Shown here: one piece after another, positions 30,836 through 55,895 of the stretch
Numbering within the stretch: the first letter of the stretch is position 1
Layout of the letters: every line of letters begins with the position of its first letter
Assembly (NCBI GenBank): GCA_034231615.1
Contig: CM067314.1
Coordinates: 8,991,501-9,055,500, forward strand
Length of the DNA stretch: 64,000 bases
Source: Meghimatium bilineatum
Taxonomy: Eukaryota; Mollusca; Gastropoda; Stylommatophora; Philomycidae
Reading direction: 5' to 3'
Made by a program: the position numbers and the translations under genes
Notes under the pieces: model-generated
The model's database searches: none
Told to the model about the DNA's origin: nothing
The model's input: the letters and a program-made list of their open reading frames with translations, nothing else

Positions 30836-30837
30836 TC

Positions 30838-31745: not shown

Positions 31746-32049
31746 CAACAAGAACGAAGAAGGTCCTTGCCAGAATCTTTTTTGCCTATTCATTTATTAC
31801 TACGGATTAACTGTCTGTCAATATTTGATGTAAGTAAAACGGAAACTCTACATCTTTTGAAATGTTTGGTCTCTTCTATTCTATGCCCCTTTTTGTATCA
31901 TTAAAGTAAATGTTAAATGTCTGCAATAAATAAATCATCAATCCACAGACAAAAGTCCACAAGTAAAAAGTATAAAGAGGAGTTTATTGGAGGTCGTAGG
32001 AGCTCAAATTCAAGGTAGTAACAATATCAGTGTATTTGTCGTCCTCTAT

Positions 32050-32265: not shown

Positions 32266-32329
32266 TGATACAGACCACAGAGTTTGATGAATCTATTCGC
32301 TGGAAGTGTTTTCTAGTGCTCTTTGGGCA

Positions 32330-32450
32330 CTCTTCGTCTGTGTTCGTTCTTAAACTCCTGCATATTAGCAGGATGTAATCCGGAGACTGCATGATCATCC
32401 TGTCATGTTCGTCTGTCATAGTCGATAATGACAATCTGAGATCAACTGTA
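32330..32450 (-). mobile_element. (GAA)n SINE 3'-part fragment
   Basis: GTTCGTTCTTAAACTCCTGC, TTAGCAGGATGTAATCCGGA in minus orientation. Truncated. Confidence 0.7.
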
Positions 32451-32547
32451 AAAGGTAAAGGTAATATGAGTTATGAACCAGTGTCAAAACACACGGTTTC
32501 CCATAAGTGCTCAGCTGTCTAGTCAGTGGTTGACCAGAAACCCCCAT

Positions 32548-32700
32548 CAAAGATGGATGTGTCATATTATTGGTGTAAATAAAACGGCAACTCAAAGCAG
32601 AGAATTTCCATTCTCTGGAATAAACTCTGCTGGAAAACTAGTAGGAACATTGTTCTGCTGCTAGAGATATCCCTTGGAAATTTTGGAATGAAGAAAAAGA
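32548..32700 (+). mobile_element. (GAA)n SINE, short copy
   Basis: AAGATGGATGTGTCATATTA, AAATAAAACGGCAACTC, ATTTCCATTCTCTGGAATAA, TGCTGGAAAACTAGTAGGAA, then GAATGAAGAAAAAG. Diverged short form. Confidence 0.78.
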
Positions 32701-32849
32701 CCAGAAACCGCCTGAAGAGGGTCCTCGACAACACTTGCTAAATTAATATGGCATCTTCCCAGAGTTTGAGCCCTGGTATCCAACTTTCTCATGTCTGGTT
32801 TAACCATGGGAGTAATTTTTATTTAAACCACGAAATATGAATGGACCCA

Positions 32850-33012
32850 TGTGACGTCAGTGACCCACAAAGCTGTACTAAATTTGGTTTGTTGTACTGA
32901 AAGGAGCAGATATCTCAGACAGCTGTAAACCTTGATTTGGCAGATTCTGTTCTCCAGAATACATCCTGCTAGTTTACAAGAGTTTGAGAATGAATGCAGA
33001 AGAAGAAGTAAT
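32850..33012 (+). mobile_element. (GAA)n SINE, 3'-part copy
   Basis: GGCAGATTCTGTTCTCCAGA, ATACATCCTGCTAGTTTAC, then GAGTTTGAGAATGAATGCAG followed by AAGAAGAAG. Confidence 0.78.
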
Positions 33013-33214
33013 GGTTCATGTCTGGAACGTGTGCCTACCAATGTTTACAGCACTTATAGTTTTTAAAGAATTGTCTGGTCATAATTTATTAATAGTTTGT
33101 GACATTGCAGAATGCAATTGTTTAGTAGTTTGAAGCCAGGGAAATAATTAACATAAATAGGAAGAGCACAGTTTTTGAAACACAGTAGTAGGGGGTAGGG
33201 ATAATATTAGAATT

Positions 33215-33510
33215 ATTTGTAGGTAAAGGTAGGCCCCCATGGCAGCCACCTGATGTCACAGATGAATATAACTTCATGCACCAAGCCACAGCAGCTATTA
33301 ATTGGGGTGGCCAGTTCCCTTTCTTACTGTCTTTACCTCCCCTAACTCATGCGTCAGGTACCCTATTACAGCTTAGTCGACAGGAGGAGTGGTCGTGTCC
33401 AGTGAGAAATCAGAATGGGAATTTTTGTTTGTCCGGACAAGGTTTCGAACCTGGTATTCTGTAATCCAGTGATAGCAAACAAGCTCAATATCAACTAGGC
33501 TACTGTGCTC
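33215..33510 (-). mobile_element. tRNA-derived SINE with boxes A and B
   Basis: On the minus strand from 33510: GAGCACAGTAGCCTAGTTGA (box A TAGCCTAGTTGA) and, about 45 bp on, GGTTCGAAACC, a perfect box B. It is followed by a body with GTCGAC, GGTACCTGACGCATGAGTTA and GTAAAGACAGTAAGAAAGG that matches the copy at 1440-1645. RNA polymerase III internal promoter plus dispersed body supports a tRNA-headed SINE. Not a functional tRNA: the acceptor stem does not pair well. Confidence 0.8.
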
Positions 33511-33829
33511 CTCAGAATTAGTTTTAACACTGCGCCTAACAACTCTCCCCTCCAAACTCTAGCATTATCCCTTCTCATTAAATGATGGCATAATTTCACT
33601 AACATTAGCCATTTTTGTAATTTGTGGCGACACGCTCTGCAAGTGATGTAAAATTATTGACTACATGAAAACTGTGTACAATCCATTTTATTGTGTACAC
33701 CATAAAAAACTTTCAATGAACCTGTGCATAATTTCTGAGTTCATTCTATTTTCTGCTTATAGATGAACTATTACATAGGCACGTGTTCCAGACAAGGACA
33801 GACATGACATTATTCTATTGATCTGCTGA

Positions 33830-34205
33830 TGCCCAAAAGGGGATCAAAGTATAGCAGCCTTGTGACCTGCTATGCATGTTGTAAGAGACAGCTAAGGAGC
33901 TTTAGGGGTGTACTTTTCTATCCTATCACATGGGTCAAAGTGACCATAAAGCCATGTCAAAGAATGAGTCTAGAGAACTGAGTTCATAATGTGTGGTTTA
34001 CAGCTTATCTGCGATATCTCAATTTTCTGCGACACATTCCAACTTCAGAATGACTTCTGGGTTACTTTAGTATTCTATGGGATGGGTCAAGCCAACCCCA
34101 AATTTCCTTATTCATCTTTAACAACATACATGACAGGTCATAGTTTTGCTATTCTGCGCAACACTTTAAGATCCCGTCAACATACTGGGGGCGACCAAAT
34201 CTTCA
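33830..34205. mobile_element. Two (GAA)n SINE pieces in opposite orientation
   Basis: 33830-33925 is a plus-strand head piece (ATGCATGTTGTAAGAGACAG). 33945-34205 is a minus-strand piece (TAGAGAACTGAGTTCATAAT, TATGGGATGGGTCAAGCCAA, ATACATGACAGGTCATAGTT). Both diverged. Confidence 0.65.
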
Positions 34206-34314
34206 TATCCATGACAAGGGGCTGGCTGTGATGTGTACTGACCCAAATAAAACTTTAATTAAAGTCAATATTATTAATTTGAAGATTTGTCACAACTTTC
34301 TAATTTTCTGGGGG

Positions 34315-34530
34315 ATCACCCTAGTGTAATGGTGTTATGCTGTTTGCCTTGAGTTCAAGAGGTCATGAGTTCGAATCTGGCTCATGTCATTTTGTGTATA
34401 AAGTGGATTTTTTCAGAGATCCCTATGGGTTATCACTTGAAGCTATGGAGTTACATGCTTTGAGTGGTACTCTTGGCAGGCAGCATGCCACTTTGTTGAG
34501 AGTGATGAGTATATATATGGGAAACCGAGT
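34315..34530 (+). mobile_element. tRNA-like SINE head and body
   Basis: GGGGGATCACCCTAGTGTAA with TGG following gives a box A; GAGTTCGAATCTGG about 35 bp later gives box B. The body up to about 34530 is AT-rich. A tRNA-derived retroposon is more likely than a real tRNA, because the acceptor arm is not complementary. Confidence 0.6.
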
Positions 34531-34749
34531 ACAGTGAAGTCAATTATCTACAACTTTTGAATTTGTTTAATTCTTTTTTTAAATTTTCTAATTTTCAGAT
34601 GATGAGAGATAAAAAAGACAGAAAGTAGAACAGACTGCAGATAAGCATCAACAAATGACTTCAGTAGTGGAATATGTAGAGTGGAAAAGCAAAATATTAG
34701 CTAGAGCTGCTGAAACCTCTTGATGCTTTACTAACCCTACTGCCCATGA

Positions 34750-35320
34750 ATGGAAACAATCAGGGCTTCATGATTGGTGTGCCAAAGAGGGTTTTTAGTG
34801 GTGTACTTTGCTGTCCTATTACATGGGTCCTCCAATTGTGTTGTGGGTGAGTTAAATGTTGTGGGTGAAGTTGGAGTTGTCAGACTTTGGCTATTGTCAG
34901 CACGTGTCTCTTTAAGGTTTCTTTGATTGTCTCCATCCATCTAATTCTTGGTCTTCCTTGTTCCCTGTAGCCCGATATTCAGCTGTTGTGTGCACAAAGT
35001 GCTGGTTGCTTTGGTTCCATTCTAATGATGTGACTAAACCACCTTGTTTGCTGTCTCTCAATGTAGTCTTGAGATGGTTTTTATTTCTTCTCTGATATCT
35101 TCATTTCTCCGTTGGTCTCAATGTTTGATATTTTTAACTTTTCTCAAACATCTCATTTCACGCAAATGTATTGCTAAAACCATACCTTGCAAGGTGATTT
35201 GGTGCCACTAGAATGGGCCTGGTTCGATTTCCATTTGTCTCAAGAATTTTCACCTCGCTGGGGGACTGTGTACTAAAGATTTCAATGTGGTACCCGTATG
35301 ACCCTGATGGATGCAGGTTT
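34750..35320. mobile_element. Cluster of LINE ends and a SINE scrap
   Basis: 34780-34830 resembles the long SINE head. 34920-35175 on the minus strand has LINE C-terminal pieces (EMRCLRKVKNI, QRRNEDIRE). 35180-35320 plus ends GTGGTACCCGTATGACCCTG, the 3' end of the family at 14125-14475. All relics. Confidence 0.6.
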
Positions 35321-35329
35321 ATAGATAGA

Positions 35330-35880
35330 ATAGATATTTAATGTAAATAAAATTGTTGAAGATTATATGAAGTACTTTGTCATTTTTTTAACCACAATGA
35401 ATGACATAATTATATCAAAGAATGATTGTCACAGAATTAGAGACATGTCTCAGAAATAAGAGATTACTTCTACATCATATGCTCTGATTCTGAAATATTT
35501 TTGAGTCATGGCCCCATTTTATAGAAAAAAACTGATCTGTGACCCCATTTTACGAAACAAAGTTACCTTCTACCCGAATACATTAAAACAAGGTCTTGAT
35601 ATAGTTAGAAGAAAACATACAAAATTACAGCTTTTTGCGTCTTTACAGATGGTTGAAAAGCTGGCCAGTGCAAAATTTCATATGAACAAGGAGACCCTCA
35701 AATTAATTAAATTGCCAAAATGCATAGTGTCTATGTTTCACACAATTTCTTTCCTAGGCAAGTTTTATTGGTTGGTTGGTTGGTTGCGGATCCAGCAGTC
35801 CATGGGCTCATACCCTTTGACCCAATGCCATTGTGTGATATATGCATGTGTTTGTGAGGTGCTGTTTTGTTCCAAATAAT
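35330..35880. other. Unassigned open frame and a dispersed repeat
   Basis: A 123-codon plus frame (35508-35879) shows no motif I recognise. It crosses a (GGTT)n run and a dispersed repeat at 35757-35835 that also occurs at 5085-5155, so I do not call it a gene. Confidence 0.4.
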
Positions 35881-35884
35881 GTGT

Positions 35885-36900
35885 TCCATTTATCTAGCCC
35901 TGGAGGGAGAAGCATTTTCCTGATGTCATCCAGTGCTGTGCATTTAAAAAGGTTGCGGTCAACATTTTCATAGGAATGAGTGCACAGTCAGCACTCTGGA
36001 TTGTGTGTTGTGGGTGTATTCTGTTCAGGTGATTGTTAAGCTATACATGTTGTGTGCACAGTCGGAATATGATACTCTGGTCTTTTCTTCCCAGGAGGTT
36101 GATGTTATCTTTAGGATTTGGGCTGGTCATATATTTATAGATTTCCCTCCCTGTGTTTCCCATAGCCCATCTGTTCACCCAATTTTCTTTAGTCACAGAT
36201 TTCAGCATCATTTTAACTGTGTGCATGTTTGTTTGTGTATATGGCTGTTCTTGTTGAGCTCCCATCTTTGCTAGTCTGTCTACCTTGTCATTGCCAGGTG
36301 TGTTTGAGTGGCCAGATATCCACCGCATAACAATGCCGACTTCATAAGATGTAAGTAGCTGGTTGGCATGGTGATATATTTCCACCAGCTCAGGCTTACA
36401 ATGTCCATCACATTCTAGGGCTTGAAGAGCGAACATAGAATCTGTGAAAATAACAATGTTGTGAAATTTTGATGGAAAGGCATCAAATATGGTCTTCGGG
36501 TGGTACAATACAACTTCTAGTGCTGTTATTTCGGCTTCATAGTTAGAACATATCTCCCCACAGGCATCAAACAACTCATCAGATGTTTTGTCTGGATATT
36601 CTATATAGACACCATAACCTTCTTTGATGGTGGCTTTGAAAGTAAACCCATCAGTATAGACATGAATCCATTGTTCTGGGTAGGTGTCTATTGTTTTCTG
36701 TGTTGCTTTCATAAGACTTACTGGGTCGGAACTTTTCGGTGCATTATTTCTTAATTGTGTCTTGATTTCCGGCAATTTAAAACTTGCGTGTGGTGATAAA
36801 CATTTTTCTACTCTTTGCAGTTCTTGTCTCTTGTCTGGGAGGTGATAGCTGCATTTTATTTCATTGACATGGTTCAGGACTGACTTTTGTTTTATTCTGT
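35885..36900 (-). mobile_element. LINE polymerase C-terminus with complete RNase H core
   Basis: A long minus-strand frame opens near 36885 and runs to a TAG at 36041. All four RNase H acidic residues are visible: VYTDGFTFKATIKEG (Asp), SNYEAEITALEVVL (Glu), IFTDSMFALQAL (Asp), NDKVDRLAKMG (Asp), with the SGHSNTPGN His loop. After the TAG the reading continues as LNNHLNRIHPQH, then a frameshift into the Cys-tail region (NVDRNLF/CTALDD) ending at about 35885. RNase H degrades the RNA strand of the element's RNA:DNA hybrid. The catalytic core looks intact, but the stop, the frameshift and the missing RT make the element non-autonomous. Confidence 0.88.
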
Positions 36901-36904
36901 GGTT

Positions 36905-37308
36905 TGGTTACTAGTTTCTACAAGTTGTTTACAAGATGCGGAGAGATATGGCTGCAATGGAGGCTTATGAAAGAAGCAAAAAAATGAACAAAGACCACCC
37001 AAATAAACAAGCCAGTTTTATTAAGATGCTGCTTTATCAATTTTTACTTGGAGGCTTTGAATGATAGTTTAAACAAGAAAACATGATCAGCCTTTTGATA
37101 TAAATGTTGAAAATGTTTTATGTATTGTAATTTGTAGGTTTTCTTGTTTACATCATAACACCCTAGTTTTAGTGATAGTTCGTGGTGTCTAAGTGGACCA
37201 TTCTTAAAACATGTGTTTTACGTTAGTACATTTTCAGATAAATTTAAACAAGATTATATGTGAAAGTAGATATGCTTTAAAAATAGGCAAAAAATTGCCA
37301 AATATTTC
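36905..37308. other. Unassigned
   Basis: AT-rich; nothing recognised. A short match to the ATAAA.GCTGC.TT end of the RNase H element lies near 37010-37045. Confidence 0.35.
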
Positions 37309-37309
37309 G

Positions 37310-37432
37310 TTTTTTGCATTCTTTCTCAAAATCGATTGGTAGAATGTAGTCTAGAGAACGGAATGTGTGTCATGGTCTAGAGCCTTGTTGAGATATCTGC
37401 ACCATTCAGCCTGTCATATTCAACTTAATCAT
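37310..37432 (-). mobile_element. (GAA)n SINE, minus fragment
   Basis: TTTTTTGCATTCTTTCTCAA, GTAGAATGTAGTCTAGAGAA, CGGAATGTGTGTCATGGTCT, CCATTCAGCCTGTCATATTC. The minisatellite starts immediately after it. Confidence 0.75.
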
Positions 37433-37439
37433 GAGCCAG

Positions 37440-38055
37440 ATATTTAAAATGGCAACCCTGTGAAAAAGATGACAACCATGTGAAAGAGATAGAAACTCTG
37501 TGAAAGAGATGGCAACCCTATGAAAGAGATAGAAACCCCGTGAAAGAGATATAAACCCAGTGAAAGAGATGGAAACTGTGAAAAGAGATAGAAACCCCAT
37601 GAAAGAGATAGAAACCCTGTGAAAGAGATGGAAACCCTGTGAAAGAGATGGAAACTATTAAAGAGATAGAAACCCCGTGAAAGAGATAGAAACCCCGTGA
37701 AAGAGATGGAAACCCCATTAAAGAGATGGAAACCCCGTTAAAGAGATGGAAACCCTGTGAAAGAGATAGAAACCCTGTGAAAGAGATAGAAACCTCGTGA
37801 AAGAGATAGAAACCCTGTGGAAGAGATAGAAACCTCGTGAAAGATATAGAAACCTCGTGAAAGATATAGAAACCTCGTGAAAGAGATAGAAACCCCGTGA
37901 AAGAGATAGAAACCCTGTGGAAGAGATAGAAACCTCGTGAAAGAGATATAACCCTCGTGAAAGAGATAGAAACCCTGTGGAAGAGATAGAAACCTCGTGA
38001 AAGAGATAGAAACCTCGTGAAAGAGATAGAAACCTCGTGAAAGAGATAGAAGATG
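37440..38055. repeat. 20-bp minisatellite
   Basis: About 30 units of GAAAGAGATAGAAACCCCGT with GGAAGAG, CCTCG and CCTGT variants. Minus frames (SISFTGFLSLSRGFYLFHG) are repeat artefacts. Confidence 0.95.
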
Positions 38056-38149
38056 GAGATCCGTTGCAGTCAACGCTTGAAAATTATACTTTTCTAATTA
38101 AATAGCGACGGCTGCAATGCCCAGATTAAAAACCATATGGGAGAGCAGA

Positions 38150-38695
38150 ATAAGTACATCAGTGAAGATACGCCTGGATACCATTGTATGCCATGTGTAC
38201 CATTATAGGTCATGTCGTGGTGTGAGACTCGGAATTGGGCGATGGGTTCACGCTGTCGGTGAACGACACCTCGGCTAAGAAGACGAAAGCGCCATGGTCC
38301 AACTCTTCTCGTGGATGAGAAAAGGTTCAGCATCCGATGGGCATAGGCACAGAACGTTGAATTACACGAGGCAGGTTCACAGACGGCGGAACACCTCGCG
38401 CGAGATAGACGTGAACGACAATCGTCTTGACGAAGTCACTACGCACCTACGTGACTGTCGACAGATAGGCAGGCTGTCACGGGCTAGGGAAGCCTACTAC
38501 CCGAATTAAAGGCATGACAAAAACGGATGTGCTGGGCCTCGGATGTCTAGACCACAAAGTGAGTCAATCGAGGTACAAATAACACAGTTCACCTGTGGAA
38601 CTTATGGCATACGTACTTCGCTCTCGCCGGCGGAAATCTCACGATTTATTCGTTGTGGTTATAAGAGAATGAACGCAGAAGAAGAATAATATGCC
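38150..38695 (+). mobile_element. CpG-rich SINE-like element with shared (GAA)n tail
   Basis: CpG-rich noncoding block with AGGCTGTCACGGGCTAGGGA, ACTACCCGAATTAAAGGCAT, AAACGGATGTGCTGGGCCTC and a 3' end GAGAATGAACGCAGAAGAAG. The second half matches 60690-60870. Its tail equals that of the other (GAA)n SINEs but its head differs. Confidence 0.68.
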
Positions 38696-38869
38696 AAGCA
38701 TACCATATGTACCAATATAGACCTATAAATCTAAAAAGAAATACATTTTCTATTTGTATAGGTACACAGATTTCTAGTTAAGATGTTGAGAAGAATATGC
38801 TATGTAATATGTCACTGTCATAAGAAGCGCTGAAGAGAGTTTCATGGCTAGGCCTATATCAATAAACCG

Positions 38870-39190
38870 TAACCCTTCACGGTCGTAGGGGTGCCACATT
38901 GGTTGCTTCAGCACACACAGTCCTCCAGCGAATTATATCCTCATCGATGCGGATGAGTGTGGAAATATATTGTCCTGTCCATTCCTTGATGTTGTCTGTC
39001 CATGTCTTTATTTTCCTTCCTCTGTTTCTTCCACTTTCGACAGTTCCCTAGTTCCATGTAGTATTGTTTTTGACAAGGAATCATGTCTGTATACATGTCC
39101 GAACCATGCTAGTTTTCGTCGATTCACTATTGAAAGCACTGGTTCCTGAACTCCTGCACACATCTCTACTTTATTTCTTATGTACACATT
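38870..39190 (-). mobile_element. LINE 3'-end fragment
   Basis: Minus-strand match to 14125-14475: starts at CACGGTCGTAGGGGTGCCAC, passes GTCCAGCGAATTATATCCTC and ends around TCTCTACTTTATTTCTTAT. C-terminal RT relic with TMLVF...HVY-type slips. Confidence 0.78.
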
Positions 39191-39199
39191 GGTCTTATG

Positions 39200-39795
39200 T
39201 TCCCTATAGGAAATTCGTAGAATTTGTCAGTAGCATTTGTACTCGAAAACCTGTAATCTTCTCAGGCTTATATAGGGACCTACCACTGACTCTAAAATAT
39301 TTATGCTAAGTTTGGCAATAAATAAACAGGATAGTGGAAAAATTAGAGGCAACAGTGATGTGGTTATATAGAGGAAAGTGTTGACAAGACATAGAGGATT
39401 TATTTAATTGTAATTGGATTATCCCATATGTATTCCATCCTTCTGAACAAAGTGATACGCGCCAGCCGAGAGTATCATTCATAGCACGTAATTATGCAGC
39501 TTTAAGCTAAAATTGCTATAATTCATAGGTAGGTAGGTTAATGAGTTAGTCTCTCTTTTTGAGAGGCGTGCCTCTTTCAACCAGCGGACAAAGTCCAATT
39601 ATGCTATATCAGGACACAAGCTATAATTCACGGGGGATTACCGCCATCTTTGTTAGCATATTCTTCCCCGTGTCCTTGAGTGATGGTGGTGCCGAGGGGG
39701 TTGCAGTCGCACCGGGCATCAAAATGCCCCTCAAAATAATGAAAACATTGAAATGGGATTTAAGTGTCTTTGCCGTGACAAAGTTGATGCCCTGC
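39200..39795. other. Unassigned
   Basis: No supported gene; ordinary intergenic sequence. Confidence 0.4.
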
Positions 39796-39798
39796 AAC

Positions 39799-39975
39799 CA
39801 GTGGCGTAACGAGAGGGAAGCGGAGGTGCGGACCGCCCCGGGCGGCATCATCGGGAGGGCGGAAAATTTATTTTTTATCCAGGCTTTCACAATCACTGCC
39901 ATATTTTTTTAATGTCACAAGGGCGGAAAATTATGAATTCCGCCCCGGGCGCCATTGACCCACGCTACGCCACTG
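39799..39975 (-). mobile_element. hAT-type MITE, 177 bp
   Basis: Bounded by CAGTGGCGTAACG and CGCTACGCCACTG, near-perfect terminal inverted repeats starting CAG.G as in hAT elements. Internal GC-rich blocks (ACCGCCCCGGGCGG, CCGCCCCGGGCGCC) surround an AT-rich core. Flanked by CAAC on both sides (4 bp only). Reverse orientation relative to 43536-43709. No transposase. Confidence 0.82.
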
Positions 39976-39979
39976 CAAC

Positions 39980-40905
39980 AGACATCCATTTTACAATTCC
40001 GTACGTATACACAAGCATTGTCATAGAGATGCGCACAAAAAATTCACAGTGAGGACGGAATAAAACAACTATCTGAAAACAACATACAACCAGGTCCGTA
40101 GATAAGGGAGGGATTTGGAGTATTCTGACACCCTCAGAAAATCGAACGACTTTAGCACAAGGAACCTATCCAAAAGATGGGTAAAAACCACTTCCTTAGC
40201 GATTTTTAAATAAAAACGTCTTCAAATTCCCAGTCAAACAGGGAAATTTACACACGAAAACGGACGAACGATATTGCTTTAGCTAAAACTTCCTCCTATT
40301 AAGAAAAATGGTTGAAGGGTACCAATTTGCAATATGTAGAGGTTTTCAAGGTCCTACCTAAAGGCATATAATGTATACGAAAATCGGAATTACATATTCA
40401 GATACTTCTAACGGTTGGCTGGTTGCTAATAAATTTGGGAATTCCAGAAACTAGACACAAAGTGTGTCCAACTACGTGTGACAACATTACCGAAAATAGA
40501 CTCTCTGCTTATGTTAGGATGTTCGGAAAATCCCGGTTTTAACCAACCAGAAATGTAGTTGTGTTGAAGTGAAAAGCACGGTCAAGGACGTGTGATATAA
40601 TCAGATCGCATGCAATCAGTACTAAAACGTCTGAATGAAACTTATCACTATCAATGTTTAGTAATCTTCAAATAATCAAGACATGCATTCACATTGTGAT
40701 TGTAAAACATTGTAGCGTCCTTGTTGGGATGTGTCGCCGCCCAACACTAGTGATACTATCTCACTAGTTCGCTGTTGAAACAATCGATACAGGTACCGTA
40801 TATATTCGTACTAAATTCGTGTTGTGGCTAGATTGCTGGTTTTCCGTTAGATTTGTACATACCAAACTACAACTGTTGAACTCCAATGTGATATCCATTT
40901 TGACT
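39980..40905. other. Unassigned
   Basis: Single-copy-looking sequence. No exon, repeat or element recognised on either strand. Confidence 0.4.
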
Positions 40906-40909
40906 TATG

Positions 40910-41310
40910 GATATGATAATTTTTAAAAAGACGTTGGAGAAAAAATTGAATTAATTTGAAAATAAATGTCTTAGAAGACTTACATATTAGTTGGGAAGAG
41001 TTCAAGTCAAATATGCAAGTAAGAGAAGACAACAAACAGCAATATGTTTCTACAATAAGAAGAAAACCATGGACTTATATCGGACATGTACTTAGAATTA
41101 ATGAAAACATACTGATATAAGCATTAAAATGGGTACCAGATGGCAACAGAAAAAGAGGAAGACCAAAAGAGACTCTTCACAGAAAAACCATCAAAGAGGG
41201 TATAACTATGGGTCTCAACAATATGCAAGAATTACACACAGTAGCATCACATCGCTCGAACTGGAGAGCTATGGTTTCTCCCCTGTGCATCATGTTCGGC
41301 GCTGAATGAA
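40910..41310 (+). mobile_element. LINE 3'-end fragment
   Basis: Reads with slips NKCLRRLTY-like, then ISWEEFKSNMQVREDN, QQYVSTIRRKPWTYIGHVLR, a stop, ALKWVPDGNRKRGRPKETLH, and MQELHTVASHRSNWRAMVSP. Family related to 29690-30410. Dead. Confidence 0.82.
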
Positions 41311-41571
41311 CATAGATATATAAGTTAGATTTGCATGTGGTCCCAAACTTACAATGGAATCCGTCAACAATAAAATATTTATAGACGTCCAGACAGTGGA
41401 CATACATTTGTTTCATGTCTGCATGTTTTGATGTTAAGGAGTGAAGGAGGGATTTCTTGCTGTGGAAATAAAGGCCGCTTTTTCATAGCTGTCGCCGCGA
41501 CGTGTACAGAAAATAGAAATAATTTTTTATTGCACCTCCAAAAGACAAAAATGCTAGTTCCAACCATGTAA

Positions 41572-41632
41572 TGAACGCCGGACCTCAGGGATTTCAAACC
41601 AGGTGTCCTAGTCATACGACCACGAGCTATTT
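41572..41632 (-). mobile_element. tRNA-like segment, probable SINE head
   Basis: Minus strand: TAGCTCGTGGTCGTATGACT (box-A-like) and CCTGGTTTGAAATCCC (box-B-like) at tRNA spacing. No paired acceptor stem, so probably a retroposed tRNA relic. Confidence 0.5.
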
Positions 41633-41689
41633 TCTTTAAAATACTTTAGCCTACTTTTCACAGAAATACATTTTCTTTGAAATACATAT

Positions 41690-41846
41690 CCGCCGAAGAC
41701 GGATGAGTCGGGCCATTGGCGCAAATAAAACTGCGACACAACGCATTTCCATTCTCTGGACTACATCCTTCTGAAAATCTAATAGGAACATGTTCCTGAT
41801 ACAAGAGATACCCAGTGGGAGTTTGAGAATGAACGCTGAAGAAGAA
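41690..41846 (+). mobile_element. (GAA)n SINE, short form, with 11-bp TSD
   Basis: Reference copy of the short form: CGCCGAAGACGGATGAGTCG, GGCCATTGGCGCAAATAAAA, CACAACGCATTTCCATTCTC, TGGACTACATCC, GGAGTTTGAGAATGAACGCT and (GAA)n. Flanked by the direct repeat GAAATACATAT at 41679-41689 and 41847-41857. A target-site duplication around a (GAA)-tailed 157-bp unit indicates retroposition. Noncoding. Confidence 0.9.
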
Positions 41847-41924
41847 GAAATACATATTATTTGACATACATTTTACATGAATGAAATAAATATGTTTTGT
41901 GAAATACATTTTCTTTAATAGTAT

Positions 41925-42005
41925 CTGTTATGTTCAGTTGACAGTATTTCCAGTAATGTGTATTTACAACGCTAGTTGACAGTATTTCCAGTAATGTGTA
42001 TTTAC
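41925..42005. repeat. 38-bp tandem duplication
   Basis: AGTTGACAGTATTTCCAGTA plus ATGTGTATTTACA occurs twice, differing at the junction. Confidence 0.85.
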
Positions 42006-42009
42006 AGCC

Positions 42010-42475
42010 AACTGCTAATTTAGCACACATGACCTTTCTTGCACAAAAAAAAGGTGTGGTGCACCCAAGTTGTGGGTAACCCAAATAATGGATCCTTGAA
42101 ACTTTCAAGAGGATATAGTATTTTTATGATATTCGGCATGCATTTAAATGTGTAAAAGAAATTTTTACCACCCAAAAAATGTATAAATAAAATGTGTGTG
42201 CATTTTTACAATGTATATTTGTCTTATTTAGTTTCACTTTAGTTAATTTTCTAAAATTAAATATTCAGTATTGCTACGACTTTAGTTTGTTTTCTGCTTT
42301 CAATTTCTGTAATAAATGTACTCACCTCCCTCTATAAAATACCCCACATATTATAGAGGAAAAGTGGTCATGCCTATAGAAACATTAATATGCAAATTTT
42401 CCTTGTTTGGAACATATTATGCATACCTGAAGCTAATGCACTGAAATATTTAGTAATTATTTACTTATCATTGAA
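42010..42475. other. Unassigned
   Basis: AT-rich; nothing recognised. Confidence 0.4.
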
Positions 42476-42479
42476 GACA

Positions 42480-43235
42480 TTCATTGGTGTAGTAGAGGGT
42501 TAACAATTGGTGTAGTAGAGGGTTAACAATTGGTGTAGTAGAGGGTTAACAATTGGTGTAGTAGAGGGTTAACAATTGGTGTAGTAGAGGGTTAACAATT
42601 GGTGTAGTAGAGGGTTAACAATTGGTGTAGTAGATGCTTAACAATTGGTGTAGTAGAGGCTTAACAATTGGTGTAGCAGAGGGTTAACAATTGGTGTAGC
42701 AGAGGGTTAACAATTGGTGTAATAAAGGTTTAACAATTAGTGTAATAGAAGGTTACAATTGGTGCAGCAGAGGGTTAACAATTGATGTAATATAGGGCTA
42801 ATAATTGATATAATATAGGGTTAACAATTAGTATAATTGAAGGTTAACAATTGGTTCAATAGAGGGTTATGGTGTAGTAGAGCTTAATAATTGATATAAC
42901 AGAAGGTTAACAATTGGTGTTAATTCTCACAAAGGGTTAACAATTGGTGTAATAGAGGGTTAACAATTGGTGTAATAGAGGTTTAAGAATTTATGTAATA
43001 GAGGGTTAACAAGGCAATAGATGTTTACCCCCGCCGACGACAGATGTGTCGGACCAATGGTGCAAATTAAACGGCGACACAACATATTTCCATTCTCTGG
43101 ACTACATCCTGCTGGAAATCTAGTAGGACCATGGTCCTGCTACAAGGGAGATCCAGCAGGAACTTGAGAATGAACGCTGAAGAAGAAGAAGAAAATGGTT
43201 AACAATTGGTGTAATAGAGGGTTAACAATTAATGG
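42480..43235. repeat. 23-bp minisatellite split by a SINE
   Basis: About 22 units of GGTGTAGTAGAGGGTTAACA plus ATT; units are perfect at the left and progressively diverged to the right. The array is interrupted at about 43030-43194 by a SINE copy and resumes as TTAACAATTGGTGTAATAGA to about 43230. Confidence 0.93.
43035..43193 (+). mobile_element. (GAA)n SINE inserted in a minisatellite
   Basis: GCCGACGACAGATGTGTCGG, ACGGCGACACAACATATTTC, AATCTAGTAGGACCATGGTC, GAGAATGAACGCTGAAGAAG. It lies inside the 23-bp array, so it is younger than the array. No clear TSD is visible against the repetitive flanks. Confidence 0.88.
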
Positions 43236-43239
43236 AAGG

Positions 43240-43520
43240 AGAATCTCGACATGACAAATATATCTTTGTATCCGAGCTAATAGTGATAGAAGGGCACGAC
43301 TGATTTGATTTTACCTTTGAGCCACAGCCTACTCAAGATTTTAGAGCTTGCGGACAACATTAAGGACAGCTGATCCAATGTATCTTTGCTTTGCATTGGT
43401 CAGTTTGCTTATTCTTCATGTCTACAACTAATGAAAAACACTGATTAGTCGGAGCAGAGAACATTAATGACGCAGGTTGTATATTCTGGATTAAATAGTG
43501 TTCGAGCCTCGTTTGTGAAC
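43240..43520. other. Unassigned
   Basis: No feature recognised. Confidence 0.4.
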
Positions 43521-43535
43521 AGGACCGCAGATATG

Positions 43536-43709
43536 CAGTGGCGTAGCGTGGGTCAATGGCGCCCGGGGCGGAATCATAATTTTCCGCCCTTGTGACATGA
43601 AAAAAATGTGTCAGTGATTGTGAAAGACTGGACGAAAATAAATTTACCGCCCTCCCAATGATGCCGCCCGGGCGGTCCGCACCTCCGCCCCCGCCTCGCT
43701 ACGCCACTG
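43536..43709 (+). mobile_element. hAT-type MITE, 174 bp, 8-bp TSD
   Basis: Starts CAGTGGCGTAGCG and ends CGCTACGCCACTG (13-bp inverted match). Flanked by CAGATATG at 43528-43535 and 43710-43717, an 8-bp target duplication as hAT transposases make. Reverse-complement homologue of 39799-39975. Inserted at the edge of the 22-bp array. Frames across it are artefacts. Confidence 0.88.
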
Positions 43710-43968
43710 CAGATATGACCTTGGTATGACGTAGATATGACCTTGGTACACCGCAGATAAGACCTTGGTATGCTGCAGATATGACCTTGGTATGCCACAT
43801 ATATATTCTCGGTAAGCCGTAGATATGACCTTGGTAAGCCGTAGATATGACCTTGGTAAGCCGTAGATATGACCTTGGTAAGCCGTAGATATGACCATGG
43901 TAAGCCGTAGATATGACCTTGGTAAGCCACATATATGACCTTGGTAGGCCACACATATGACCTTGGCA
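43710..43968. repeat. 22-bp minisatellite
   Basis: About 11-12 units of GTAGATATGACCTTGGTAAG plus CC. The leftmost units border the MITE and supply its target duplication. Confidence 0.94.
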
Positions 43969-43974
43969 TAAGAG

Positions 43975-44640
43975 TGAGTTTCTGTAATAATAAAAATGAT
44001 AGCCTGACAGTTTTTTTCTTTTATTCCATACGTTTCTTGTGTAACAACTAACAGGGGGGGGTGAGGGGGTGTTTGTGTTTGATTAGTAATGTGCCCACTT
44101 GTTTATCTGTTTGTTAGATAAGAGATAAAAACCCTATTAAGATGACGCAAGACCTTTCAACCTAAGATAGGAATTCATTATGGTTATATTAGGATTTTTT
44201 GTCTCTTTATATAATTGTGACCTAAAGGTCTGAGACCAATATGCTACTAATCACATCATTATTGTTAATATCATAAACACGGTACGGACCAATAAGCTTG
44301 TAACACGTGATCCAGCCATACAAAGCGAGTACTATCACTAACGACCACAAACGTGAAAACTTTCAATCGCAGTGTGGCCTAAACACCACCCAAGTCAGGA
44401 TCACTAATGCGCGTTAGTGTATCATCACATTCAAGATGTTCAGATAGTAGTTTGAACTTTATACACTTTGATTGTTATATGAACATTTTTAATCAACATT
44501 TTCATACCTCTGTTTCTTTAGTCAAGTTCGTCACTAGTTTCGCCCTGTTTGCGGATACAAACAGCATTATCTATCTTGTCTGATCTGAGTATTTCTGTAG
44601 TGTTGATTGGCTGGCGACGCTAATCTGAGTATTTTCGTAG
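43975..44640. other. Unassigned with poly-G run
   Basis: Poly-G at 44055-44061; no exon or element recognised. Confidence 0.4.
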
Positions 44641-44644
44641 TGTT

Positions 44645-44757
44645 GGTTGGCTGGTCCATTCTCAGGACTATATCCTGCTGGAAATCTAGTAGGACCCTGG
44701 TCCTGCTACAAAGGAGATCCAGCAGGAGTTTGAAAATGAACGCAGAAGAAGAAGAGA
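44645..44757 (+). mobile_element. (GAA)n SINE, 5'-truncated
   Basis: Begins at CCATTCTCAGGACTATATCC and keeps the 3' part: AAATCTAGTAGGACCCTGGT, GATCCAGCAGGAGTTTGAAA, ATGAACGCAGAAGAAGAAG. 5' truncation is usual for retroposons. Confidence 0.85.
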
Positions 44758-44778
44758 TTTGCTGGCAACACTAAGTAT

Positions 44779-44949
44779 CAGCGCCGGATTTAGACTTGAT
44801 AAGGCCCTAAGCTATTTGAGATGTGGGACCCTTTGTATGTCCAGATAGTAGGCCTATATGTCAATGCCAAATTTGATTTTTTGGGGGCCCCCAAGAAAGT
44901 GGGGGCCCGAAGCTATAGCTTGTTTAGCTTTTACGTAAATCCTGCACTG
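44779..44949. mobile_element. hAT-type MITE, 171 bp, 8-bp TSD
   Basis: Left end CAGCGCCGGATTTAGAC; right end reads TAAATCCTGCACTG, an imperfect inverted repeat of it. Exact 8-bp duplication CTAAGTAT at 44771-44778 and 44950-44957. Internal GGGGGCCCCC palindrome. Different sequence family from the two CAGTGGCGTA elements. No coding. Confidence 0.9.
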
Positions 44950-45129
44950 CTAAGTATACACAAAATGCTCAATGATGAGTCACATCGAGTCATACGACAC
45001 ATTAAGATCAGTACGCATAACAATCGGGATGAAAGACTTCCTGCAGTCATCTAGTGGCTCAGTCATTCAACATTTCATGCAAATAATGGACATATTATTG
45101 AGACAGACAAATGCTCAACCATGACCGTT

Positions 45130-49767: not shown

Positions 49768-49917
49768 GAGAACATTTTATACAATACGAAAATGGATATT
49801 AAAAATTCAACTACACTTCCAAAATTTTACACAAGTATTGATGACGTCATTTTGGGAGTTGCTCCCTCAGCACCTGCTCAGTTCACAGCAACAGACGCAT
49901 GGAACCAAACTTATCGG
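49768..49917 (+). CDS. Small glycosylated single-pass membrane protein, coding exon 1
   Basis: First of three coding exons of a 104-residue protein that I do not recognise. An acceptor (CATAG|GAG) precedes 24 bp of leader, then ATG at 49792 in good context (A at -3, G at +4). The exon codes 42 residues: MDIKNSTTLPKFYTSIDDVI, LGVAPSAPAQFT, ATDAWNQTYR, ending CGG|GTATGT in phase 0. Two N-glycosylation sequons (N5-S-T, N38-Q-T) lie here; N43-F-S starts the next exon. No hydrophobic signal peptide is present, so with the later membrane helix this fits a type III (N-out) orientation. The reading is open upstream of the ATG to the acceptor, so a longer N-terminus from an unseen exon is possible. 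Intron 1 (49918-53390) holds LINE ends and two arrays. Confidence 0.78.
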
Positions 49918-49984
49918 GTATGTGTCTTAGATATACATTTAAGCACAAATAGAATTCACAGAGCGTATCATACAATCTAAAGGT

Positions 49985-50660
49985 TTGAGAAAAGACAAAC
50001 ATAATTCTGCGTGTTGTAGCAAATTTTCACATTATATATAAATATATATATATTTATAACTGGAAAGTTGGAGATTAGAGGCAACAGAGATGTGGTTCTA
50101 TAGAAGAATGCTGAAAATATCATGGACTGCTAGAAAAAACTAATTTGGAGGTGTTGAAAAAGTCAAATGCGAAACGGACCTTAATCAATAATATAAGAAA
50201 TGACAATCTTCATTTTTTGGCCACTTCATGAGACAGGGAGGTTTGGAGAACATAGTCACAACAGGCAAGATTGAAGGCAACAGACAGAGGGCTAGCTACG
50301 CCAGCTGGCATGGCACCTGATGATGATATATATACACATGGCGTCTATGAAGTCTCTGTGAAGAGAAATGTATGCGTTCAATATGACGTAATTTCAAGTT
50401 GTGTATTTATATAGTCCACTATGCAGTTGCTCGGCAGATTGCTGTTAACTGCAGATTAAACTTGTGATCACTGAACAAAGAGTATTTGTGCTGGAACAAA
50501 TTTAATTGTTATTGGTAACGTAACCTAATCAGGAAGAAGCTGTCCACCCAGCATTTTTGGCTGTAGTGATTTTCTGGGCAATATAAATACGTCTTTTTGT
50601 CAACATTTCAGCTGGTAAATGTCTGATTTCCGTATTATATTCCAACTTTCAATCAACCTC
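49985..50660 (+). mobile_element. LINE 3'-end fragment (50060-50335) in intron 1
   Basis: Pieces EIRGNRDVVL, ENIMDC-type slip, VLKKSNAKRTLINNIR, HFFGHFMRQGGLENIVTTGK, IEGNRQRA, then a deletion and the ASWHGT end with CACCTGATGATGAT tail. Same family as 58294-58694. Remaining sequence is unassigned intron. Confidence 0.78.
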
Positions 50661-50664
50661 AATA

Positions 50665-51165
50665 AGCATCCACACAATACTTATGAAGGCGCAGGCACGC
50701 TGGGCAGGCCATCTTGTGCGTATGGAGAACTCGCGTTTGCCAAAACAAATATATTATGGAGAACTCAAGGCAGGATTTCGAAAAGCTGGTGGACAGAAAA
50801 AGCGTTTCAAAGACACGCTCAAGTCATCCTTGAAACATCTTAACATTGACGTAGGCGCTTGGGAGAGCCTCGCTCAGGATAGAACAGCATGGCGTTACAT
50901 CATTAGAACGGCGGAAGAATTCAGACAAGAAACTGCAAGACAGAAGCGGACACGTAGAAAAGAAAAAAAACATCTCAACCTCACACAGATACCTTCTATT
51001 GTTGTCAATTCTGTAAAAGAACATTTTGTGCGCGCATTGGACTTGCTAGTCATTTAAAAACGCACTATTAACTTTATTATTTTATTATTTATTGTTATTA
51101 TTATTATGGTTGAGTTTTTGGTCATCGTCGATCACGACGGACAAACATCATCATCATCATATTCC
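50665..51165 (+). mobile_element. LINE 3'-end fragment in intron 1
   Basis: One open frame reads AQARWAGHLVRMENSRLPKQ, IYYGELKAGFRKAGGQKKRF, KDTLKSSLKHLNIDVGAWES, LAQDRTAWRYIIRTAEEFRQ, a well-known RT C-terminal block of animal non-LTR elements. The zinc-finger end is lost. The 3' end has GATCACGACGGACAAACATC and (ATC)n. Confidence 0.9.
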
Positions 51166-51169
51166 AACT

Positions 51170-51600
51170 TTGCCACGTTGAAAGTAATTCTTTCAGCTAA
51201 CATGAATTGAACCATGTCCGTTCTGTCAGCACCGAATTGCTTTGCAATACAAGTAAACAGGTTTTCCGTACTTGACCAACCTCATCCCCAAAAAATAAAT
51301 GTTGAAAGTACATTGTCCATCAGTGATTCCAAAGCTCAAATATTGACTAAAATCACGGCCATGATCTGTTCTTGAATGTAACTTCAGAGAACATATAACA
51401 TTATCAAAGTCTAATATCAAGCTGACAGCTTCTCCATCTGGTCCAAATACATTATCATATCAGCAGCAACGATGTGTAGTCTGCTGGGGAAAAAAGTGTC
51501 ACTATTTTGTGACACATGCTACAACATTTCATATTCGTTGTCAGACAAAATACGAGAGCCAGTCTGGCATATTATTGACATACTGTGACGTTTTCGTATA
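51170..51600. other. Unassigned intron sequence
   Basis: No exon or repeat recognised. Confidence 0.4.
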
Positions 51601-51604
51601 ATAT

Positions 51605-52135
51605 TTATGACAGGTCAGTTTATTTGGCCAAAAGTACATTCAATGACTTGAGGAAAATAGTAACATCGGAAAAATTACAAAGTTAAAATTGAGAATTATA
51701 AAATGCTACATCTATTCCATATTAATGTATGGATCAGAAACATGGACACTAAATAAACAATTAGAAGACAGAATTGATGCCTTTGAGATGTGGGTATATA
51801 GGAGAATGGGGAGAACATCAAGGAAAAAGAGAAGAAAGCAAATAAAGAGGTGGTAAAACACTTAATATGAAGAAAGAATTACTAAGAGAAATATCAGGTA
51901 AATAAAATATTTTATACACATTAAAAGACATGGCACCTTATTGAAGGCCTTACTTGAGGGTAAAGTCATAGGGAAGCGAGCAAGAGGTAGACAGAGATAC
52001 AAGTAGGAGAGTAACATCATTAGTTGGACAGGTTACAGTCTAGCAGAGTGTACCACCAAAACAAGAGACATGGGCTGTTGGAGATATGTTGCAGCCAACC
52101 TTCGTTGCGGAGACGGTACTTGATGATGAGTTTAT
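51605..52135 (+). mobile_element. LINE 3'-end fragment in intron 1
   Basis: KSTFNDLRKIVTSEK, LKCYIYSILMYGSETWTLNK with slips, EDRIDAFEMWVYRRMGRTS, KDMAPY-type slip, and 3' end GTTGCGGAGACGGTACTTGA then TGATGA. Same family as 61085-61325 and 63380-64000. Confidence 0.85.
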
Positions 52136-52141
52136 TTATTT

Positions 52142-52610
52142 TTGGCAGGCCATTCTATTTATTTGTGACAGGACAGTCTATTTATTTGTGACAGGACAGT
52201 CTATTTATTTGTGACAGGACAGTCTATTTATTTGTGACAGGACAGTCTATTTATTTGTGACATGACAGTCTATTTATTTGTGACATGACAGTCTATTTGT
52301 TACATGACAGTCTATTTATTTGTGACAGGACAGTCTATTTATTTGTGACAGGACAGTCTATTTATTTGTGACAGGACAGTCTATTTATTTGTGACATGAC
52401 AGTCTATATATTTGTGACAGGACAGTCTATTTATTTGTGACAGGACAGTCTATTTATTTGTGACATGACAGTCTATTTGTGACATGACAGTCTATTTATT
52501 TGTGACAGGACAGTCTATTTATTTGTGACAGGACAGTCTATTTATTTGTGACATGACAGTCTATTTATTTGTGACAGGACAGTCTACATTTATTTATGAC
52601 ATGTAAACCT
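52142..52610. repeat. 23-bp minisatellite
   Basis: About 20 units of TATTTATTTGTGACAGGACA plus GTC, some with CATGACA or shortened. Ends in a diverged longer unit (52580-52620) resembling the 45-bp unit downstream. Confidence 0.95.
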
Positions 52611-52806
52611 ATTTCTTATAACTAATAATTATATTTGTTTGCCACATATAATCATGTTTCTTTGGATTTCAGTCGATTTCCAAGAGAAATCAGGCGATTT
52701 ACTTTTCTTCTTCTTCTTCTGCGGACATTGTTAGATCATCAGGCATGTCTTGAAGGCGAAGTCCACTGTCTGTTCCAGGTCTGAGCGGCTGCTTCATAAC
52801 TTTTGC

Positions 52807-53335
52807 TCAAATGTTTATTTGTGATATGTAGTAACCCTGTTTCTTGTGATTAATCAGTCTATTTATTTGTGGCATGTAACCCTGTTTCTTGTGATTAATC
52901 AGTCTATTTATTTGTGGCATGTAACCCTGTTTCTTGTGATTAATCAGTCTATTTATTTGTGGCATGTAACCCTGTTTCTTGTGATTAATCAGTCTATTTA
53001 TTTGTGGCATGTAATCCTGTTTCTGGTAATTAATCAGTCTATTTATTTGTGGCATGTAACCCTGTTTCTGTTGATTAATCAGTCTATTTATTTGTGGCAT
53101 GTAACCCTGTTTCTTGTGATTAATCAGTCTATTTATTTGTGGCATGTAACCCTGTTTCTTGTGATTAATCAGTCTATTTATTTGTGGCATGTAATCCTGT
53201 TTCTGGTAATTAATCAGTCTATTTATTTGTGGCATGTAACCCTGTTTCTTGTGATTAATCAGTCTATTTATTTGTGGCATGTAACCCTGTTTCTTGTGAT
53301 TAATCAGTCTATTTATTATGACACGTAATCATGTT
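52807..53335. repeat. 45-bp minisatellite, open on both strands
   Basis: About 11.5 units of TCTATTTATTTGTGGCATGT, AACCCTGTTTC, TTGTGATTAATCAG. 45 is divisible by three, so both strands keep one frame open for ~157-160 codons (plus INQSIYLWHVTLFLV; minus INRLINHKKQGYMPQ). Located 60 bp before exon 2 of the membrane-protein gene. Confidence 0.96.
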
Positions 53336-53390
53336 TCTTGTTCTTCATCCTGCTATTAATGACATATTTAACGATTTATTTTTCCTTCAG

Positions 53391-53430
53391 AACTTTTCAA
53401 TAGGGGCTGTTCAAGTAGAGGAAGAAACAG
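53391..53430 (+). CDS. Small membrane protein, coding exon 2
   Basis: A 40-bp exon with a strong acceptor (TTTTTCCTTCAG|AAC) and donor (ACAG|GTGAGA). It adds NFSIGAVQVEEET and one base (phase 1), continuing the frame from exon 1. It holds the third sequon (N43-F-S) and an acidic E52-E53-E54 patch placed just outside the membrane. Its tiny size is unusual, but both junctions are consensus and the frame closes correctly with exon 3, which supports it. Intron 2 runs 53431-55746. Confidence 0.75.
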
Positions 53431-53614
53431 GTGAGACACCGTGTGTATTTGCTGATCTCTAGACAGTCTGTATGTCCAATATAACAAGCATAGCTCTTTC
53501 ACGTGCTGTGTATGCGGTGCCTACGTAGAATTTTTGGGTTCAGGTGGCAGAACAAAATCACGGACACTGATATATTAAAAAAAGACCGGCAATTTGTCAC
53601 AGTATTGACCAAGT

Positions 53615-53715
53615 TCAGTTTACACATTCATAGATGGTTAGAAAGTCATTCATAGATGGTTAGAAACTCATTCATAGATGGTTAGAAACTCATTCATAGA
53701 TGGTTAGAAATTCAT
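53615..53715. repeat. ~21-bp tandem repeat, about 4.5 units
   Basis: CATTCATAGATGGTTAGAAA, inside intron 2. Confidence 0.9.
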
Positions 53716-54210
53716 TGTAACCAACAAAATTACAACTATTAAGAAGCTATGTTGCTCCAGTAATATCATATAGTTGTGAGAGGTGGACAATGGCATCTGT
53801 AATGATAAAGAAAATATCGACATTCGATATTAAATTTTATAGTATTAAGAATATCATGGGCATAAAAACGAACCAACGCAAATGTCTGCAAAGATCTGAA
53901 CATAGAAGAATGGTTCCTCAAAACTATAAAAAAAATTCAATTATAGCATATTTCGGGCATGTAAAGAGATACAATGGTTTAGAAAGATTAATCATGGAGG
54001 GAAAAGTTCCGGGAAAGAGAACAACTGAGACTACGAGGAACACATGACATCGAAGACATTCTGAACGTGACACTAGAAAAAGGGACACATGACATCAAAG
54101 ACATTCTGAACGTGACACTAGAAAAAGCTGGGCAGCTCGTACAGAGCTGAAAGTCTTACAAAGTAGCAGTGAAGACAACGTTCTGTAGTGAAGACAGCGT
54201 TCTGTAAAGG
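53715..54210 (+). mobile_element. LINE 3'-end fragment in intron 2
   Basis: YVAPVISYSCERWTMASVM, ISTFDIKFYSIKNIMGIK, HRRMVPQNYKKNS, YFGHVKRYNGLERLIMEGKV, PGKRTTETTRNT. A ~42-bp piece near the end (GGACACATGACATC...GTGACACTAGAAAAAG) is duplicated at 54043-54125. Decayed. Confidence 0.83.
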
Positions 54211-54339
54211 ACTTGTCACAGAGAGAGAGAGAAAGAGAAACGGAGAGACAGTGAGATGGTTAGGCACACAGGAAGGGGGGAAAATGGCAGGATACCGAGT
54301 GATCTCCTTTATGTGGGATGTGGGACGTAGATATGTTCT

Positions 54340-55485
54340 CGGACAGTGCCGGGTGAACACCTTCAGTATGTTCTCGTATAGACCAGGTCGTGCATGTGTA
54401 GACCACATCTTCACTCTCATAACTATTATAGAGAACTCGATTGAGTTTCAGTCACCTTTGGTAATAAACTTTGTAGACTTTCAAAAGGCTTTCGACAGTA
54501 TATATCGTCCCGAACTTCTGAAAATCATTAAGTTTTTGGATTTCAACCACAATATATAAACATCATGAAAGCACTCTTTCAGGAAGCAAACTGTTTTGTA
54601 ATGGTTTAATGTCGGCCTAGGAGTAAAAGAAGGACGTGTATTATCAACCGTTCAAGATGAAGAATCGGGTATCAGATGGCTCGGAAACAACAACTTAACT
54701 GACCTTTTTTTCATATGACATCGCAATCTTGATCTCTGCTCACCAGCAAACACAAGATACAACCGACATGATATGCACACTCGTAGATCAGATTAGGCTC
54801 CAGATCAACACATATAAATAAAAAATCATGGAACACACTCCTCAAGTGACATCTCATCAAACAACCAAATACTCGAACAAGTATCCACCTTTACTTACTT
54901 TGGTAGCAGAATGTCTGCAGATGGTGACTCAATGAAAGAAATAAATACACGCATAGCAGTCTCAGCAAGCGCATTCACTAAACTAATGAGCATCTGGAAA
55001 TACAAAGACATGGGAAGAAGCAGCAATTTAAAACTATTCAACTCTTGTGTTTTTCCATCATTGACTTATGATAGCGAAAGCTGGAAATCAACACAGGCAA
55101 CGAACCAAAAATTTTGAAAACAAACGTCTCCGAAAATTGTCGAACATAAAATGGAGCGATTTTGTCACAAATAGCGACCTACGAAATAAAATACACTAAG
55201 AATATGTTTCAAATGTTATAAGAAAACGCAGATGGAAATATCTGAGACACATTCTAAGATTAGATGAAAACAACCAGCAAGCTTTTATGTGTACACCGGA
55301 GGGTGAAAGAAAAAGAGGAAGACCCAAAATTACCCTAAAAAGCACCATACTTAAAGAAGGAAAAATAATAGGTTGAAAGCCCACACAAGAACTAAAAGTA
55401 CAGTCAGCTGAACGCAACGCAAGGAGAATCAAAACATCTATCCTAGGTGAGTCCTCCATCAATATAAGGCAATACTGTGTGAAAC
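54340..55485 (+). mobile_element. LINE reverse-transcriptase remnant in intron 2
   Basis: Starts SYRPGRACVDHIFTLITIIE, has palm motif A as VINFVDFQKAFDSIY, then frameshifts. The motif C region reads FFSYDIAILISAHQQ, where the catalytic YADD/FADD is replaced by SYDI, so the active site is destroyed. Continues MSADGDSMKEINTRIAVSAS, ESWKSTQATNQKF and the C-terminal region to about 55485. Same family as 29690-30410. Confidence 0.85.
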
Positions 55486-55499
55486 GTAACAACAATAGC

Positions 55500-55605
55500 A
55501 CCTGCGTAATAACCTCCTTAGTTGCTTTGTATGACATACATGGTATGTTTCAGTGTCACTGTTCTTTTCTGTCATTTCGGGCAACGGCAACACAGTGAAA
55601 GTGTT
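55500..55605 (-). mobile_element. (GAA)n SINE 5'-part fragment
   Basis: ATAACCTCCTTAGTTGCTTT, ATGACATACATGGTATGTTT and CATTTCGGGCAACGGCAACA match the long-SINE head on the minus strand. Confidence 0.65.
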
Positions 55606-55746
55606 CTTTCTTTATACATGTCTAGAAAGGCAATGTAATATCCATGATGTACTTCAATGATCAATGTGAATTATTATTATAATACATGAAGTTAAAAAGT
55701 ATGCTTAACACAACTTATCTGTGAATTTTTGTGTTCTTGTCCACAG

Positions 55747-55895
55747 ATCTTTCCTTCCTGTTGCCAACAAGGATGGCAGTTATAGCCGGTGTTATCATAG
55801 CTCTCTTCATTGTAACCTGGGGAAGTTACACCATACATAGAAAATGTGTCAAGGACAGCTGGAAACATAAGTACCAGAAAGCCATGTTCTTATGA
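55747..55895 (+). CDS. Small membrane protein, coding exon 3 with transmembrane helix
   Basis: Acceptor GTCCACAG|ATC; the exon completes Asp56 and runs to TGA at 55893-55895. Residues 57-64 are LSFLLPTR, then a 21-residue membrane helix (about 65-85) MAVIAGVIIALFIVTWGSYT, followed by a basic tail HRKCVKDSWKHKYQKAMFL with six Lys/Arg and Cys89, a possible palmitoylation site at the membrane edge. The positive-inside rule puts the tail in the cytosol and the glycosylated N-terminus outside. Spliced CDS 315 bp, 104 residues. 3' UTR follows, with AATAAA at 56550-56555. Similar layouts occur in small ion-channel or receptor accessory subunits, but I see no family signature and give no function. 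Confidence 0.82.

Follow-up and report, generated by a model that had tools for sequence, protein, structure and literature searches.

KCNE proteins carry N-glycosylation sequons at the N-terminus and a basic juxtamembrane tail, and the coding regions of vertebrate KCNE genes consist of one exon. In the excerpted text of PMC10950684, KCNE1 is a protein of 129 residues with one helix. The excerpted text of PMC4210162 gives the nematode protein MPS-1 a KCNE-like topology, with an extracellular N-terminus, one helix and an intracellular C-terminus; its helix is necessary and sufficient for complex formation, and residues 74-256 are cytosolic. Here, we analyzed a 64,000-nucleotide stretch (hereafter the window; C17:8991501-9055500, contig CM067314.1, forward strand) of the 1.61-Gb, 32-contig genome of the gastropod Meghimatium bilineatum. 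A preliminary description had proposed that it holds a gene for a small glycosylated single-pass membrane protein. Our analysis suggests, with a probability of about 0.5, a gene with three coding exons from an old family that has at least two diverged members in the genome, in which the helix and tail would form an accessory-type working part. That the gene itself exists is very probable on the sequence evidence.

The gene and its diverged paralog

The exons at 49768-49917, 53391-53430 and 55747-55895 of the plus strand join in frame to a coding sequence (CDS) of 315 bp, from the ATG at 49792 to a TGA, and the product has 104 residues. Our re-reading gave the same borders and frame as the preliminary description. 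All borders obey the AG/GT consensus (cattcatag before exon 1 and cgg/gtatgt after it; ccttcag before exon 2 and acag/gtgaga after it; tccacag before exon 3), and the start context, aaaATGg, is good by inspection. Coding exon 1 (49792-49917) encodes residues 1-42, ends at the phase 0 donor GTATGT and carries the sequons N5 (49804-49806) and N38 (49903-49905). Exon 2, of 40 bp, encodes residues 43-55 and base 1 of codon 56; it starts at the third sequon, N43, and ends with an acidic run. Exon 3 encodes residues 56-104 and the TGA stop.

A whole-genome search with the window protein gave five matches at no fewer than three loci: the window, a place 346 kb upstream on C17, and an exon 3 on contig C25. 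This count is a lower bound, because the search scores the best candidates only. We found that 28 of 50 residues (56%) are identical between the C25 exon 3 and that of the window. The C25 exon follows a tttattcttgttacag acceptor in identical phase, and its first codon is again Asp. The likeness does not extend past the exon: in the 150 bases before it and the 300 after it, the shared matches are only 7-14 bases long. Over 49 codons, the differences at codon positions 1, 2 and 3 number 20, 7 and 31 (chi-square, P = 4 × 10−6). With the stop codon excluded, 22 of 48 residues are changed, whereas random redistribution of the 55 substitutions changed at least 24 in each of 5,000 runs. A stop arose in 80% of these runs, and the real exon has no internal stop. 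The nonsynonymous divergence (dN) was 0.31 by NG86 and 0.36 by LWL85; LWL85 put the synonymous divergence (dS) at 1.56, and NG86 could not compute it. The third-position bias and the few residue changes thus indicate that selection has maintained the protein since the duplication, which is old.

The 98 kb upstream of the C25 exon 3 were scanned for the other two exons. A candidate exon 2 at C25:4387884-4387923 has exactly the same length (40 bp) and phase; it is open, reads NTSNRSIEEDEEA, and is flanked by a tttgatttgtttcag acceptor and a gtgagtga donor. It scored 19 against the window exon 2 (runner-up 8 among 429 candidates) and was the top of the 13 candidates with good splice sites (next 2), where none of 300 shuffled queries reached 19. 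The candidate exon 1 (C25:4386110-4386247) reads MDDVTTSTEQTTFNTTIDGVNFVTEYPSYNNETFNRIFHFWEYRFQ, has a GTAGGC donor in phase 0 and is separated from exon 2 by a 1.6-kb intron. It ranked first of 65 candidates (score 16, next −5), and a score of 16 was reached by none of 200 shuffled queries. The joined C25 protein would have 111 residues and four sequons, with 42% overall identity to the window protein.

The C25 candidates thus lie in order and have the same intron phases (0, 1), a 40-bp exon 2, the helix and the tail, as expected of a two-member family. Because a diverged second gene has a matching exon plan, the window gene model is more than chance. The paralog and the small number of loci make it very probable that the gene is real and old, that its helix and tail are under purifying selection, and that it is not a dispersed repeat. 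The preliminary description had named a dispersed repeat as the case that would speak against a gene; the 1.6-Gb genome has at least three loci, of which two, 346 kb from each other, are nearly identical. A chance open frame or transposon remnant, that is, no functional gene, is hardly credible. Its surroundings, rich in minisatellites and reverse-transcriptase-like debris, would suit such an origin, but the number of loci, the selection on the protein and the conserved exon plan argue against it.

The description had also called the gene a possible orphan. This holds in that no known family was matched; the gene is not a singleton, however, as it has an old diverged paralog and a near-identical copy, and a recent origin in one species alone is therefore unlikely. 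Neither the C25 exon-3 part nor the outer part alone, used as a query, brought up a further credible locus in the genome. A match at C25:96657321 (E = 1.1, 34% identity, one internal stop) was considered as a fourth locus and dropped on reading by eye; a minisatellite adjoins it. When 134 kb of C17 and 155 kb of C25 were compared in six frames, repeats dominated the 2,165 matches; among the filtered matches listed, the exon 3 pair was the one clear gene pair that we recognized.

Because exon 1 begins at an acceptor, an additional 5' exon is likely. The leader (49768-49791, plus strand) follows the CATAG acceptor, and by inspection its 24 bases contain no in-frame stop ahead of the ATG. Both observations would agree with the gene being the C-terminal end of a larger protein of the membrane, with upstream coding exons before 49768. 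In the paralog, however, a ctatatacag acceptor likewise lies 30 bases ahead of the ATG, with an in-frame TGA between them, right at the exon start, and the two ATGs align at M1. A larger protein is thus very improbable.

Predicted topology and the probable working part of the protein

As had been described, three sequons (N5, N38, N43) precede one 21-residue helix, M65-I85 (MAVIAGVIIALFIVTWGSYTI, 55773-55835), and a basic 19-residue tail, H86-L104 (55836-55892), which is predicted to be cytoplasmic. The helix is the sole hydrophobic segment (best 19-residue average 2.36, residues 60-78, versus at most 0.78 in the first 55 residues). At least three sequons occurred in the 63-residue outer part in 0.6% of 20,000 shuffles; the paralog has four in an outer part of 67 residues, and 4.5% of shuffles reach four. 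Within 15 residues of the helix, the window protein has 1 basic and 4 acidic residues outside and 6 basic and 1 acidic inside, and the paralog has 1 and 6 outside and 8 and 1 inside. In both proteins the single hydrophobic segment is not N-terminal, and all sequons lie on the outer side of the helix. The reverse signal anchor is an established topology rule, and one helix, this charge bias and sequons all outside fit its prediction. An N-out/C-in topology, which the preliminary description had favored, is accordingly predicted by both the sequons and the charge distribution, and we consider it highly likely. A structure model of the exon-3 part (48 residues, two sequences; mean predicted local distance difference test, pLDDT, 77; predicted template modelling score, pTM, 0.39) shows a single unbroken helix, the tail being modelled less confidently.

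Conservation between the paralogs is focused on the helix and the juxtamembrane segment GSYxIHRKxVxDSxKxKYxK, and exon 1 is much less conserved than exon 3. The paralog retains both residues of the A66xxxG70 pair in the helix as well as the tail core, IHRKxVxDSxKxKYxK (with I85). Two features of the fast-changing outer part are retained: an acidic stretch near the membrane and an N-x-S site where exon 2 begins. Because conservation is so focused on the helix and tail, these are most likely the working part.

The following mechanism may be proposed. The helix would act as a reverse signal anchor with no cleaved signal peptide, placing the N-terminus of about 64 residues outside, where it would be N-glycosylated, and the tail inside. 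The glycosylated outer part would be a flexible, fast-changing head. The helix would pack, through A66xxxG70, against a partner membrane protein or against itself, and the tail would bind acidic lipid or a cytoplasmic partner. The glycans would protect or traffic the complex, and the partner might be a channel, pump, receptor or second copy of the same protein. The accessory subunit of the preliminary description is plausible; that the protein serves a channel, pump or receptor as a small accessory subunit is possible, at somewhat less than even chances.

A competing explanation is a surface glycoprotein acting through its outer part in recognition, adhesion or defence, with the fast-changing exon 1 as the active end. 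The low conservation of exon 1 and the enrichment of sequons are consistent with it. However, it is the helix and tail that form the conserved half, and the outer part lacks cysteine in both proteins (by inspection) and has no domain match. We regard this explanation as doubtful, at about one chance in a few.

Several points weigh against an old family with a working helix and tail. When all 429 candidates count, a score of 19 is reached by 17 of the 300 shuffles of the exon 2 query, the candidate filters were chosen after the top candidates had been seen, and a looser local score put the exon 1 candidate third (35 versus 36 and 36). The CDSs of the two C17 copies differ at 2 of 315 sites, one of which alters a residue (E52A); the copies are too alike, so no constraint can be read from the pair. 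The A66xxxG70 pair is based on two diverged sequences, and the evidence for an accessory-subunit role is shape and conservation pattern.

Very probably this is a real, selected gene from a small orphan family of an ordinary kind, and its product is a predicted surface glycoprotein. Annotation easily overlooks or discards small membrane proteins of three exons that have no relatives in databases. The present gene, which its old paralog shows to be under selection, is hidden by long introns, a 40-bp exon and an outer part that changes quickly. If the accessory-subunit role is true, the short list of invertebrate beta-subunit families would grow by one; if not, the gene would represent a further orphan family of surface glycoproteins.

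The near-identical copy and the surrounding sequence

The second C17 copy lies on the same strand as the window locus. Window positions 29791-63762 align piecewise to C17:8675001-8712000, the full extent of the DNA compared there. Outside exons and tandem arrays, 61 of 10,766 sites (about 0.6%; 48.4-62.0 kb) are substituted, and the minisatellite copy numbers differ. Positions 22300-23300 are 98% identical to C17:8666173-8667179, and other copies of the dispersed repeat are 91-92% identical. This segment is part of an abundant dispersed repeat, of which the best 40 of 2,234 candidates were nearly full-length with 91-100% identity, the window copy included. The two C17 copies may have arisen by recent duplication, or they may be haplotypes that were both retained.

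Exons of a tektin gene (PF03148) were found on the minus strand at 1861-2019, 3964-4200 and 6936-7088. At 32.9 bits the last fell just short of the 34.3 cut-off, and a TAA lies within it or at its edge. A further tektin exon lies outside the window (C17:8987114), and paralogous ones occur on C21, C8, C24 and other contigs. Because no second tektin exon set was among the matches listed on C17, the left edge of the duplication is probably between 7.1 and 22.3 kb. No tektin exon was among the matches listed on C25; thus, this neighbor gives no evidence of synteny between the C17 and C25 regions.

Intron 1 (49918-53390, plus strand, 3,473 bp) contains two minisatellites and transposon-like debris. 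The minisatellites (52129-52603 and 52831-53341) have 23- and 45-bp units with a common core by eye, AGTCTATTTATTTGTGRCA, and one looks as if it had grown out of the other. The window is rich in minisatellites (74 tandem-repeat entries per 64 kb, some overlapping), and reverse-transcriptase-like fragments were seen by eye between them. Pfam searches of two of the three plus frames over 30001-44999 gave no match.

Comparison with known small membrane proteins

That no family is recognizable, as first stated, agrees with our searches. Pfam gave for both proteins sub-threshold noise only (DUF2162, 14.4 bits against a cut-off of 34.4; DUF1616, 14.0 against 31.6; SoxE_N, 10.8 against 27). The PDB gave nothing by single sequence and chance matches only by profile (E = 0.9). 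Hmmscan, whose filters drop most matches above E = 0.1, listed neither KCNE (PF02060) nor FXYD (PF02038) for either protein. The places listed for the two models in the whole genome did not include either locus: PF02060 (seven candidates scored) gave three weak places, all below the cut-off and all away from C17:9.04 Mb and C25:4.39 Mb, with control genomes also without a match over the cut-off, and PF02038 gave six weak places, none over the cut-off or at these loci, with no positive control among the control genomes. The best of the three PF02060 places, a possible KCNE on C21 (20.9 bits, below the cut-off of 22.1, no internal stop), was dropped; the match starts in a TA repeat read as YIYIYI. 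In literature on KCNE, MPS-1 and gastropod orphan genes, mostly at the level of abstracts and thus weak evidence of absence, we recognized no paper describing the window gene.

FXYD regulators of the Na,K-ATPase are, like the window protein, short, N-out, single-helix proteins with a basic tail, but their PFxYD motif is absent from both of our proteins by inspection. Glycophorin-C-like type III sialoglycoproteins resemble it in their uncleaved, N-out, glycosylated ectodomain and basic juxtamembrane segment; they differ in that the window protein has no Pfam match reaching the cut-off.

The KCNE/MinK-related proteins, which include nematode MPS, are a further close comparison, and the predicted architecture (N-out/C-in, one helix, N-terminal sequons) is of KCNE type. 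Like KCNE proteins, the window protein combines N-terminal sequons with a basic juxtamembrane tail, and the motif SY-x-I-H-R-K-x-V-x-D-S after its helix may resemble the KCNE juxtamembrane region. Unlike them, both proteins lack the DP[FY] motif known from KCNE tails (by inspection), and the CDS is in three exons instead of the one of vertebrate KCNE genes. In size, 104 residues are comparable to the 129 of KCNE1 in the excerpted text of PMC10950684. The N-out/C-in single helix agrees with MPS-1 in the excerpted text of PMC4210162, although the MPS-1 tail there (residues 74-256) is far longer than the 19 residues found here. A diverged invertebrate KCNE/MPS-type potassium-channel beta subunit of type III topology, against which the missing PF02060 matches also count, is therefore unlikely. 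Slightly less likely still would be an unrecognized invertebrate KCNE-like accessory family, unrelated or too diverged for profiles, whose conserved helix and IHRKxVxDS tail would mediate pairing with channels, of the voltage-gated potassium type or others. Membership in the KCNE family is a possibility only; the resemblance in shape to KCNE and MPS-1 is real.

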